Assembly (NCBI RefSeq): GCF_000429265.1
Contig: NZ_AUBN01000009.1
Coordinates: 124,001 to 188,000, forward strand
Origin: Actinomyces gerencseriae DSM 6844
GTDB lineage: Bacteria > Actinomycetota > Actinomycetes > Actinomycetales > Actinomycetaceae
Length of the DNA: 64,000 nt
Direction of reading: 5' to 3'
Position numbers and translations under genes: made by a program. Below, piece by piece: positions 54,738-58,289 of this stretch; the first letter of the stretch is position 1, and each line of letters starts with the position of its first letter. Below the pieces are notes generated by a model. It made no database searches, was not told where the DNA came from, and worked only from the letters and a program-made list of their open reading frames with translations.

Positions 54738-55124
54738 GTGCCCGCCACTGATCACGCCGTCGCCCTGACCCGTGTCGCCGCCCGCGCCGCCGCAGAGAAG
54801 AAGGCGGAGGGCATCATGGCGATCGACGTCTCCGAGCGGCTCGCCCTGACCGACGTCTTCCTCATCCTCTCGGGTGATAACGACCGTCAGGTGCGAGCGA
54901 TCGTCGATGCGATCGATGAGGCCATGCTCAAGGCCGGAACCAGGCGCAGGTCGCGGGAGGGCTTCGAGGACTCCCGTTGGGTGCTCATCGACTACTCCGA
55001 CATCGTCGTTCACGTCCAGCAGTCCGAGGATCGCGAGTACTACGCCTTGGAGCGTCTGTGGAAGGACTGCCCTGTCATCGAGCTGCCCGAGGATGTGCCG
55101 GCTCCGGCCGATGTCGCGAGTTGA
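54738..55124 (+). CDS. rsfS: Ribosomal silencing factor RsfS
   Basis: RsfS binds L14 and blocks subunit joining when nutrients are scarce. The 128 residues contain KKAEGIMAIDVSERLALTD, FLILSGDNDRQVRAI and the signature DSRWVLIDYSDIVVHVQQ with EREYY-like EDREYYALERLW. The GTG start at 54738 follows AAGGAG. It sits in the nadD-rsfS-phosphatase group found in many actinobacteria. Confidence 0.95.
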   Translation: MPATDHAVALTRVAARAAAEKKAEGIMAIDVSERLALTDVFLILSGDNDRQVRAIVDAIDEAMLKAGTRRRSREGFEDSRWVLIDYSDIVVHVQQSEDREYYALERLWKDCPVIELPEDVPAPADVAS

Positions 55125-55140: not shown

Positions 55141-55791
55141 ATGACGCGACTGGTCTTGTGGCGGCACGGTCTGACCGATTACAACGTGGCGGGCAGGATC
55201 CAGGGACGAGTCGATATCCCGCTCAACGATGCCGGGCTCGCTCAGGCCTCGGCGGTGGCGCCGGCCATCGCGGCCATGGAGCCGACCGCGATCGTGTCAT
55301 CGCCTCTCGGCCGCGCCCGGCAGACCGCCGACGTGCTGTCCGCCGCAGTCGGTGTGGACGTGCGTGTCGACGACGCCCTCATGGAGCGGTCCTTCGGCAT
55401 GTGGGAGGGACTGGAGCGCCTCCGGATCGAGAGGACGTGGCCCGATCAGTTCGCGGTGTGGCGGGCCGGGGGGGATCCCGAGGGAGTCGGGGTCGAGACG
55501 CGCGGCGACACCGCCACCCGGGTCGGCGTTGCGATGGAGGACATAGCCGCGGAGGCGGGCGAGGCCACCGTCGTCGTCGTCGCGCACGGAGCGGCCATCA
55601 CCCTGGGCGTCACTCGTCTTCTGGACCTCGATCCCTCCGCGTGGTTCGGACTGCGCGGTCTGGACAACTGCCATTACGCGGTGCTGAGCAGCGCGGAACG
55701 ATCCCCGGGCTGGAGGATCGTGCACTGGAACCGTGGTGAGGGCTGGGCGGCCCCCGCCGCGAGTGCGGCGCTCGGCGGGTTCCTGTCCTGA
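55141..55791 (+). CDS. Histidine phosphatase family protein (GpgP-like)
   Basis: Branch-1 histidine phosphatase of 216 residues. Catalytic RHG is at 8-10 (VLWRHGLTDYN), a second Arg in SSPLGRARQTA, the Glu in LMERSFGMWEG, and the second His in VVVAHGAAI. In mycobacteria the gene after rsfS is the glucosyl-3-phosphoglycerate phosphatase GpgP (Rv2419c), so a similar role is possible; cobalamin or phosphoglycerate substrates cannot be excluded. ATG 55141 has GGAGGG upstream. Confidence 0.88.
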   Translation: MTRLVLWRHGLTDYNVAGRIQGRVDIPLNDAGLAQASAVAPAIAAMEPTAIVSSPLGRARQTADVLSAAVGVDVRVDDALMERSFGMWEGLERLRIERTWPDQFAVWRAGGDPEGVGVETRGDTATRVGVAMEDIAAEAGEATVVVVAHGAAITLGVTRLLDLDPSAWFGLRGLDNCHYAVLSSAERSPGWRIVHWNRGEGWAAPAASAALGGFLS

Positions 55792-55917: not shown

Positions 55918-55990
55918 GGGGCTATGGCGCAGTTGGTAGCGCGCTTCCATGGCATGGAAGAGGTCGGGGGTTCGAATCCCCCTAGCTCCA
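55918..55990 (+). tRNA. tRNA-Ala (GGC)
   Basis: A canonical 73-base alanine tRNA. Acceptor GGGGCTA pairs with TAGCTCC, including the G3:U70 wobble that identifies alanine tRNAs; D-stem GCGC/GCGC; anticodon stem CTTCC/GGAAG around loop ATGGCAT (U33, anticodon GGC); variable AGGTC; T-stem GGGGG/CCCCC with loop TTCGAAT; discriminator A73. CCA is not encoded. Confidence 0.97.
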
Positions 55991-56036
55991 CGATTCGCAC
56001 TGCGGCATTGATCGTGCGGTACGGATGCCTGTTCAT

Positions 56037-56108
56037 GGGGCTATGGCGCAGTTGGTAGCGCGCTTCCACTTCGTGGAAGAGACGGGGGTTCGATTCCTTC
56101 TAGCTCCA
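56037..56108 (+). tRNA. Aberrant tRNA-Ala-like gene with UUC anticodon
   Basis: A 72-base gene with acceptor, D-arm and anticodon stem identical to the preceding tRNA-Ala, including G3:U70 and A73. The anticodon loop is ACTTCGT: C33 replaces the invariant U33, and the anticodon position reads TTC (glutamate codons). The variable loop has four bases (AGAC) and the T-stem GGGGG/CCTTC has two G-U pairs. The anticodon arm can also fold as a seven-bp stem with a three-base loop. Either a mistranslating chimeric tRNA, a decaying copy or a tRNA-like regulator. Confidence 0.7.
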
Positions 56109-56146
56109 CGGTTCACGCTCGACGGTCATCGAGTCGAGGGATCCGC

Positions 56147-56219
56147 GGGGTCATGGCGCAGTTGGTAGCGCGCTTCCATGGCATGGAAGAGGTCGGGGGC
56201 TCGAATCCCCCTGGCTCCG
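56147..56219 (+). tRNA. Variant tRNA-Ala (GGC), possibly degenerate
   Basis: A third copy: acceptor GGGGTCA pairs with TGGCTCC (G3:U70 kept), the D-arm and anticodon arm (anticodon GGC, U33) match the first copy, and the T-stem is perfect. But T-loop CTCGAAT has C in place of T54 and the discriminator is G instead of A73, both bad for a working alanine tRNA. It lies 82 bases before the OPT transporter gene. Confidence 0.75.
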
Positions 56220-56300: not shown

Positions 56301-58289
56301 ATGTCCGGCAGCACCGCTCCCACCGCACCGGGTGTCCGTGAACTCACGATACGGGGCGTCGTCATCGGTGGCCTCATCACCCTGGTGTTCACCGCCGCCA
56401 ACGTCTATCTGGGATTGAAGGTCGGCCTCACCTTCGCCACCTCGATCCCGGCCGCGGTCATCTCCATGGCGATCCTGCGCAACTTCCGGGACCATTCCGT
56501 GGTGGAGAACAACATCGTTCAGACCATCGCCTCGGCGGCGGGCACCCTGTCCGCCATCATCTTCGTGCTGCCCGGCCTGGTCATGATCGGCTGGTGGACC
56601 GGCTTCCCCTACTGGCAGACCGCGCTTGTGACAGCGCTGGGCGGCGTGCTGGGCGTCATGTACTCCATCCCTCTGCGCCGGGCTCTCGTCACCGGATCCG
56701 ATCTGCCCTTCCCGGAAGGCGTGGCCGCGGCGGAGGTGCTGCGCGTCGGAGACAGTGCCGAGGGCGCGCAGGAGAACAGGCGCGGTCTGATGGTCATCAT
56801 CGTGGGCAGCCTGCTGTCGGCCGGGTTCTCCCTGCTGGCGGCGATGAAGGTTGTGGCCGGCAACATCGAGCGGGCCTTCCGCGTCGGTTCCGGTGGCAGC
56901 ATGGTCAGCGCCGGCCTGTCTCTGGCCCTGATCGGCGTGGGCCACCTCGTCGGCATCACAGTCGGCATCGCCATGATCGTCGGACTGGTCATCTCCTTCG
57001 GCGTCATGCTGCCGTTGCGGACAGCCGGCCGGATTCCCGCCGGTGACGACCTCGGCGAGGCCGTGTCGACGATCTTCAGCTCCGACGTGCGCTTCGTCGG
57101 AGCCGGGGCCATGGCGATCGCGGCCGTCTGGACACTCGTCAAGATCGCCCTGCCCATCGGTCGGGGCATCAAGGAGGCCTTGGCCTCCACCCGCGCCCGT
57201 GAGAGTGGGGCGGAGGTCCCCGTCGTCGAACGCGACCTGTCCGTGCGCGTGGTCGTCGGGGTGACGCTGGCCTCGATGCTGCCCATCGGACTCCTCTTGT
57301 GGCTCTTCGTGCGGAACACGCCCATCGCTCACCACGCGGCCGGCATGGTGGTGGTCAGTATTCTCTTCGTGCTGCTGATCGGCCTGGCCGTCGCGGGCGT
57401 GTGCGGTTACATGGCGGGCCTGATCGGCGCCTCCAACAGTCCCATCTCCGGGGTCGGCATCCTTATCGCCATCACTGCCGCCCTGCTCATCAAGGTGGTT
57501 CACGGAGCCCAGACGCCGGGGCAGGGCGATGCGCTGATCGCCTACACCCTGTTCACCGCCGCGGTCGTGTTCGGAGTGGCCACCATCTCCAATGACAACC
57601 TGCAGGATCTCAAGACCGGTCAGCTCGTCGAGGCCACCCCGTGGAAGCAGCAGGTCGCACTTGTCATCGGGGTCGTCTTCGGCTCGCTGATCATTCCGCC
57701 GGTGCTGCAGCTGCTCAATACCAGCTTCGGCTTCGCCGGTGCGCCCGGGGCCACCAGTAACGCCCTGGCCGCGCCCCAGGCGGCTCTGCTGTCCTCCCTG
57801 GCCAAGGGCGTGTTCGGCGGTGATCTGGACTGGGGACTTCTGGGCCTGGGTATCGCGATCGGCGTGGCCGTGGTCGTCGTCGACGAACTGCTCGGCCGGG
57901 CGACGGGGGGCGGGAGGCGCCTGCCGCCGCTGGCGGTGGGCATGGGGATGTACCTTCCGATGAGCCTGACGCTCATCATTCCCGTCGGGGCGTTGGCGGG
58001 CCTGATCTACGACCGGTGGGCGGAGGGAACCGCCGATCCGGAGGGCACCAAGCGGCTGAGCACTCTTGCCGCGACCGGGCTGATCGTGGGCGAGAGCCTG
58101 TTCGGCGTGGTTCTGGCGGGCATCGTCGCGGCCACGGGGGAGGACGAGCCCCTCGCCGTCGTCGGGCCCGGGTTCACGACCGCCTCCGAGATCATCGGAA
58201 CCCTGCTGTTCGCGGGCACGGTTCTCGGGCTGTACCTGTGGGTCAAGAGGCGGTCGATCGGGGCGATGAGCGCCCACGGCACGGCCTGA
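56301..58289 (+). CDS. OPT family oligopeptide transporter
   Basis: A 662-residue multi-pass membrane protein (about 14-16 helices) of the OPT superfamily, proton-coupled importers of oligopeptides or metal chelates. Recognisable segments are TIRGVVIGGLITLVFTAAN, YLGLKVGLTFATSIPAAV, PEGVAAAEVLR (the cytoplasmic loop of OPT/YSL proteins) and SNSPISGVGI. ATG 56301 follows GAGGAGAA. It stands alone between the tRNA genes and a convergent MarR gene. Substrate unknown; peptide uptake is the usual role in bacteria. Confidence 0.88.
   Translation: MSGSTAPTAPGVRELTIRGVVIGGLITLVFTAANVYLGLKVGLTFATSIPAAVISMAILRNFRDHSVVENNIVQTIASAAGTLSAIIFVLPGLVMIGWWTGFPYWQTALVTALGGVLGVMYSIPLRRALVTGSDLPFPEGVAAAEVLRVGDSAEGAQENRRGLMVIIVGSLLSAGFSLLAAMKVVAGNIERAFRVGSGGSMVSAGLSLALIGVGHLVGITVGIAMIVGLVISFGVMLPLRTAGRIPAGDDLGEAVSTIFSSDVRFVGAGAMAIAAVWTLVKIALPIGRGIKEALASTRARESGAEVPVVERDLSVRVVVGVTLASMLPIGLLLWLFVRNTPIAHHAAGMVVVSILFVLLIGLAVAGVCGYMAGLIGASNSPISGVGILIAITAALLIKVVHGAQTPGQGDALIAYTLFTAAVVFGVATISNDNLQDLKTGQLVEATPWKQQVALVIGVVFGSLIIPPVLQLLNTSFGFAGAPGATSNALAAPQAALLSSLAKGVFGGDLDWGLLGLGIAIGVAVVVVDELLGRATGGGRRLPPLAVGMGMYLPMSLTLIIPVGALAGLIYDRWAEGTADPEGTKRLSTLAATGLIVGESLFGVVLAGIVAATGEDEPLAVVGPGFTTASEIIGTLLFAGTVLGLYLWVKRRSIGAMSAHGTA

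Follow-up and report, generated by a model that had tools for sequence, protein, structure and literature searches.

What is a tRNA for when its body is that of an alanine tRNA and a glutamate triplet stands at the anticodon position? The question is raised by the second of three consecutive tRNA genes in Actinomyces gerencseriae DSM 6844, and the answer developed below is that the RNA probably carries alanine for a job other than the reading of codons. The genes lie in a window of 64,000 nucleotides (contig NZ_AUBN01000009.1, positions 124,001 to 188,000) from a 3.42-Mb draft genome (G000), which was studied within a comparison set of 49 genomes of the genus, one per species.

Three tRNA genes and their locus in Actinomyces

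The row of three genes at 55918..56219 that was proposed in the first-pass annotation, made from the letters of the DNA, was recovered both with ARAGORN and with the Rfam model RF00005, all three scoring above the gathering score of 29 bits. The genes and the two parts of copy 2 that are central to the argument are:

55918..55990, + strand: copy 1, an ordinary tRNA-Ala(GGC) (ARAGORN; RF00005, 68.4 bits)
56037..56108, + strand: copy 2, an alanine-type tRNA with a predicted sealed anticodon arm (RF00005, 57.5 bits; 'Glu(UUC)' in ARAGORN; orthologues in G059, G061 and G028)
56063..56079, + strand: anticodon arm of copy 2, predicted as a 7-bp hairpin with a UUC triloop, A32-U38 and C33-G37 (fold; four-species alignment)
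56084..56100, + strand: T arm of copy 2 with G50-U64 and G51-U63 (both pairs invariant in four species)
56147..56219, + strand: copy 3, a tRNA-Ala(GGC) with C54, G73 and U5-G68 (ARAGORN; RF00005, 60.2 bits)

Copy 1 is the normal tRNA-Ala(GGC) that it had been taken for, and the peculiarities that had been listed for the other two genes are likewise present: G3:U70, A73 and UUC at the anticodon position in copy 2, together with C33, a four-base variable loop and the T-stem G-U pairs 50:64 and 51:63, and C54 and G73 in copy 3. Copy 2 also has G37. With 57.5 against 29 bits it belongs to the tRNA family, and its score is no outlier among the 51 tRNA matches of the genome, which range from 45.7 to 77.3 bits, so that the score alone gives no mark of a pseudogene. 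The acceptor and D arms are those of copy 1. Outside the anticodon there is no resemblance to the tRNA-Glu of the genome, the other Glu(UUC) gene differing from copy 2 in the anticodon stem, the loop and the T-stem. As the genome contains this Glu(UUC) gene and two Glu(CUC) genes, copy 2 would be dispensable for the reading of Glu codons. The further alanine genes are Ala(CGC) and Ala(TGC). Among the 49 distinct tRNA sequences of the genome, 48 have U33 and copy 2 is the exception.

Outside the window, the same genome has a tRNA that is called Ile(UAU) and whose variable region contains a long insert (L086, G000:C12:1109-1199) and a short-armed tRNA called Leu(CAA) (L085, G000:C7:146285-146358). 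The anticodon CAT was seen in only two genes, each of them called Met, and a separate Ile(CAU) was not recognised in the genome.

The tRNA-Ala(GGC) locus was examined in 48 of the 49 genomes; in G026 there was no tRNA-Ala(GGC) among the matches listed. At 47 of these loci the 73 bases of copy 1 are identical and come first, and at the remaining one, in G002, the first tRNA-Ala(GGC) differs in the T-stem at the 49:65 pair. Two consecutive ordinary tRNA-Ala(GGC) genes are present at 42 of the 48 loci, and at four the second gene is the odd RNA represented by copy 2 (G000, G059, G061 and G028, referred to below as carriers). A pattern made from the T arm and the 3′ acceptor strand, with at most two mismatches, matched once in each carrier and in none of the other 45 genomes. 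The odd RNA of G059 and the bases that follow it agree with those of A. israelii DSM 43320, and G059 may belong to that species. The third tRNA-Ala-type gene, copy 3, was seen only in G000 among the 48 loci; on the evidence of this one genome it is probably a weakened extra tRNA-Ala. The loci of G021 (L046) and G003 (L048) have a single tRNA-Ala(GGC).

In the window, the genes on either side of the tRNAs are:

54738..55124, + strand: rsfS (ribosome silencing factor), upstream neighbour (TIGR00090, 102 bits, cut-off 56.9; synteny)
55141..55791, + strand: gene of the histidine-phosphatase/phosphoglycerate-mutase family, upstream neighbour (17 NCBIfam models, all below their cut-offs; synteny)
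56301..58289, + strand: OPT family transporter gene, downstream (TIGR00733, 759 bits)

Both upstream genes are found at 47 of the 48 loci, the stretch available for G065 being too short to contain them. Downstream, with about 1.5 kb covered at the 48 loci, an OPT match is present in G000, G059 and G061 only and was not found in the examined stretch of the carrier G028. It had been suggested that tRNA-like RNAs are kept here as regulators ahead of the OPT gene; the tie to OPT is seen in three of the four carriers and is missing from the G028 stretch, and it is the other half of that suggestion, a role other than decoding, which fits best. No consensus promoter was found at the four carrier loci. 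Terminator-like sites are present at two of them, in G061 (15 pairs) and G028 (6 pairs), where about 0.5 would be expected by chance, and should be weighed little.

The anticodon arm of copy 2

In all four carriers A32, C33, G37 and U38 are fixed, giving an arm of the form CAC-loop-GTG, below which the 4-bp stem varies among the species (CTTC/GAAG, CCCC/GGGG or CTCC/GGGG). The triplet in the loop is different in every carrier, being UUC in G000, UUU or GUU in two others and a four-base UAUU in G061, and the names given by ARAGORN to the orthologues in the four species are tRNA-Glu, tRNA-Lys, tRNA-Asn and undetermined. The NGC anticodon in an open 7-base loop with U33, by which a tRNA-Ala would be recognised, is absent from copy 2 and its orthologues alike.

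The predicted fold closes the anticodon arm to 7 bp in each of the four orthologues, which agrees with the possible seven-base-pair hairpin pointed out earlier for copy 2. In this computation the closed form lies 3.4 kcal/mol below the open 7-base loop for copy 2, and 3.4 to 4.8 kcal/mol below it across the four; ordinary tRNA-Ala(GGC) is also folded closed in the prediction, with two extra pairs, though with a smaller gain of 1.8 kcal/mol. All 23 pairs of the structure form in all four sequences, and two pairs of the anticodon stem have changed on both sides. With four sequences the evidence from covariation is thin, 43 of 500 shuffled controls reaching the covariation score and 211 of 500 reaching the two-sided pair count.

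The usual U-turn is impossible in a loop closed by a C33-G37 pair. Such closure, together with a triplet that drifts from species to species, makes decoding unlikely as the trait under selection. The first-pass annotation had put forward that copy 2, if charged with alanine and used, would place Ala at Glu codons, and had itself listed reasons for doubt. The doubts were well placed: the orthologues have UUU, GUU or a four-base loop where copy 2 has UUC, and C33-G37 is present in each of the four. As the triplet is not conserved, Glu-to-Ala mistranslation as a maintained function is rejected in the form in which it was stated. The precedent invoked for it, mistranslating tRNAs of alanine identity in actinobacteria, was not recovered either: in the dual-identity tRNAs of actinomycetes that were found in print, anticodons for Ala, Asn or Thr are combined with the identity of proline (PMC11415595, PMC10365949).

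A milder form of the idea, by analogy, is that of an alanine-charged tRNA-AlaX family that reads Glu, Lys or Asn codons inefficiently, with C33 acting as a damper. UUC, UUU and GUU are all sense anticodons, and tRNA-ProX likewise joins a single body to anticodons for Ala, Asn and Thr, has A33 and not U33, and mistranslates in E. coli (PMC11415595). We nevertheless consider this attenuated mistranslation unlikely: the four bases of G061 belong to an anticodon loop of 8 bases, such as no ordinary decoder has, C33-G37 is able to close the loop in all four RNAs, and the carriers have no second AlaRS, whereas ProX is accompanied by ProRSx (PMC11415595).

To place the arm among other tRNAs, the whole genome collection was surveyed with a pattern for an alanine-type tRNA having G at 37 and any base except U at 33, a pattern that is blind to the G061 form, to pairs other than with G37 and to a different D arm. 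It matched 66 stretches, of which 62 could be parsed, the other four (L138, L149, L152 and L157) being tRNA genes whose anticodon arm contains masked bases. All seven anticodon-arm pairs are present in three of the 62, two Actinomyces records and one record from Patescibacteria (L143, L151 and L126). The Patescibacteria gene (L126, 3369-3405, minus strand) has the anticodon GGC together with C33-G37, could form a 7-bp anticodon hairpin, is without G3:U70, and may represent an independent instance of arm sealing. Within the order, a stricter pattern matched two of 396 genomes, both of them carriers; G059 and G061 are outside that sample. The exact 25-base T-arm/acceptor pattern matched no stretch in viral contigs, and a phage origin of copy 2 was discarded on this account. 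A literature search combining Actinomyces israelii with tRNA and anticodon found no paper, and no tRNA of this kind appeared among the literature matches listed, as judged by titles and the openings of abstracts.

Alanine identity and conservation of the body

tRNA-Ala is defined by G3:U70 and A73, which AlaRS recognises independently of the anticodon. Both features are intact in copy 2 and its three orthologues. A single full AlaRS match is present in every carrier; G028 has a second match, which is a fragment of 37 residues. A search for a partner AlaRS for copy 2 in the four carriers found none. Nor is there a dedicated synthetase beside copy 2, its near neighbours being rsfS, the phosphatase gene and the OPT gene.

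These identity elements also bear on the possibility that the RNA is a structured regulator or decoy which uses the tRNA fold and has no need of charging, by analogy with the tRNA-Other of Bacillus cereus. Pseudo-tRNAs with regulatory roles do exist (PMC3399842), and a fixed fold with a free loop would be in keeping with such a role. G3:U70 and A73, however, would be needless in a mere decoy and are kept in four of four sequences, and no T-box RNA was found in eight genomes that included the four carriers, by a search that was positive in 5 of 14 controls, Corynebacterium glutamicum among them. An uncharged regulator or decoy would therefore seem improbable.

In a tree of rsfS and the phosphatase gene from 47 of the 48 loci the four carriers form a single clade, with support of 99-100. 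The phosphatases of the other three carriers are 66-75% identical to that of G000, fourfold sites differ between pairs of carriers by 23-57% according to gene and pair, and of the 127 fourfold-degenerate sites that the four carriers share, 41 have the same base throughout. The body of the RNA has hardly changed over the same distance. Outside the anticodon arm, and up to the discriminator base, the four orthologues have one variable column, a base of the variable loop, and the variable loop and T arm agree in 20 of their 21 columns. Given the fourfold identity of 41/127, the probability of 20/21 is about 2e-9, on the assumption of independent neutral sites and with the proviso that many of the tested bases are common to copy 1, where conversion could help. 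Gene conversion with copy 1 could in this way have preserved the acceptor and D arms and those T-arm bases that the two copies have in common. The states peculiar to copy 2 are also kept in all four species, namely C33 and G37, one change in the T-loop, two in the T-stem and the loss of a variable-loop base. Since neighbouring synonymous sites have diverged and the body is near invariant, the body appears to be kept by selection, and by comparison of sequences copy 2 is no random relic, the same RNA standing in the same place in three other Actinomyces species.

The explanation that we regard as least probable is that copy 2 is a decaying tRNA-Ala(GGC) duplicate partly refreshed by conversion: acceptor and D arms equal to those of copy 1 are what conversion would yield and copy 3 has the look of a decaying copy, but the persistence of copy-2-specific bases in species that have kept so few fourfold sites, the intact stems and the two pairs changed on both sides are left unexplained by it, so that the earlier suggestion of decaying duplicates fits copy 3 and is disfavoured for copy 2.

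Proposed role and comparison with known systems

We favour the reading, with a probability of roughly 0.58, that copy 2 is an alanine-accepting, non-decoding tRNA with a sealed anticodon arm that has a non-ribosomal or regulatory role, and that it belongs to a small family specific to one clade. More tentatively, with the odds slightly against it, we suggest that a tRNA-Ala duplicate was sealed by C33-G37 and kept as a dedicated donor of alanine, in which case a non-proteinogenic tRNA would have arisen along a new structural route.

In the proposed sequence of events copy 2 would be transcribed downstream of tRNA-Ala(GGC) and then matured as a tRNA. The single AlaRS would charge it through G3:U70 and A73, ignoring the anticodon, and the sealed loop would bar the product from the ribosome. 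Weaker binding to EF-Tu through the altered T-stem may add to this exclusion. The occurrence of G50-U64 and G51-U63 in four of four sequences is a hint of such weak binding; tRNA-Gly isoacceptors of S. aureus are thought to escape EF-Tu through T-stem changes that include the 51-63 pair (PMC4052509). Two points, among others, count against the favoured reading: the tRNA-Arg(ACG) of the same genome likewise has two T-stem G-U pairs, and the score of copy 2 is normal.

The alanyl-RNA might then feed a non-ribosomal reaction, for example an alanyl transfer of FemX or MprF type, or act as a regulator. No enzyme confined to the carriers was found among the candidates sought in the 49 genomes, FemAB being present in 48, the MprF domain in 44 and the lanthipeptide dehydratase N-domain in 12, with seven of these over the cut-off. 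Three carriers have matches to the dehydratase N-domain, and of these G000 alone is over the cut-off. An MprF-type protein with only the Pfam LPG_synthase_C domain and no LysRS domain is found in all four carriers and in the non-carrier G015. The window genome has two FemAB-family proteins, one of them encoded beside thrS and the other a weak match to the FemX alanyltransferase model (42.9 bits against a cut-off of 500). At L221 (G000:C8:84000-103000) two FemAB genes lie about 10 kb apart, with tRNA-Val(GAC) and tRNA-Gly(GCC) between them.

If the favoured reading is true, a cell could keep one aminoacyl-tRNA away from the ribosome simply by closing its anticodon loop, and the family would provide a natural test of how far a loop can be closed before decoding stops. 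In annotation, calling by anticodon gives orthologous RNAs different names, and gene finders assign other amino acids to what is an alanine-type tRNA.

Among known systems, copy 2 is like the non-proteinogenic tRNA-Gly of S. aureus, which serves peptidoglycan bridge synthesis, in being an extra isoacceptor with T-stem changes that include 51-63 (PMC4052509). The S. aureus RNAs carry glycine, have G18 and G19 replaced and have T-stem changes to A-U (PMC4052509), whereas copy 2 has alanine identity, intact G18 and G19, G-U pairs in the T-stem and a sealed anticodon arm. With the tRNA-Other of B. cereus it would share a tRNA shape in an RNA outside translation (PMC3399842), an exclusion that we infer in the case of copy 2. 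tRNA-Other carries an anticodon for Trp, accepts lysine poorly in vitro, lies at the flank of a genomic island and may be part of a larger RNA (PMC3399842); copy 2, in contrast, has alanine determinants and lies at an ordinary tRNA locus.

The tRNA-ProX of Streptomyces and Kitasatospora (ProA, ProN and ProT) resembles the family in having one body with several non-cognate anticodons and an unusual base at 33 (PMC11415595). It is described there with proline identity, A33, A34, A15-A48, G21 and the partner ProRSx (PMC11415595), whereas in copy 2 and its orthologues the identity is that of alanine and the corresponding bases are C33, U34 or G34, G15-C48 and A21, with no second AlaRS. Copy 2 thus falls outside tRNA-ProX, for which the proline body with these bases and a synthetase isoform alongside would be expected. 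Finally, an anticodon stem of more than 5 bp is shared with tRNA-Pyl and with the allo-tRNAs, whose anticodons are very diverse (PMC7609411). tRNA-Pyl decodes and has an anticodon stem of 6 bp, and the allo-tRNAs have long arms like those of tRNA-Sec (PMC7609411); copy 2 differs from both in placing a predicted closed arm of 7 bp, with a loop of three to four bases, on an otherwise standard tRNA-Ala body.
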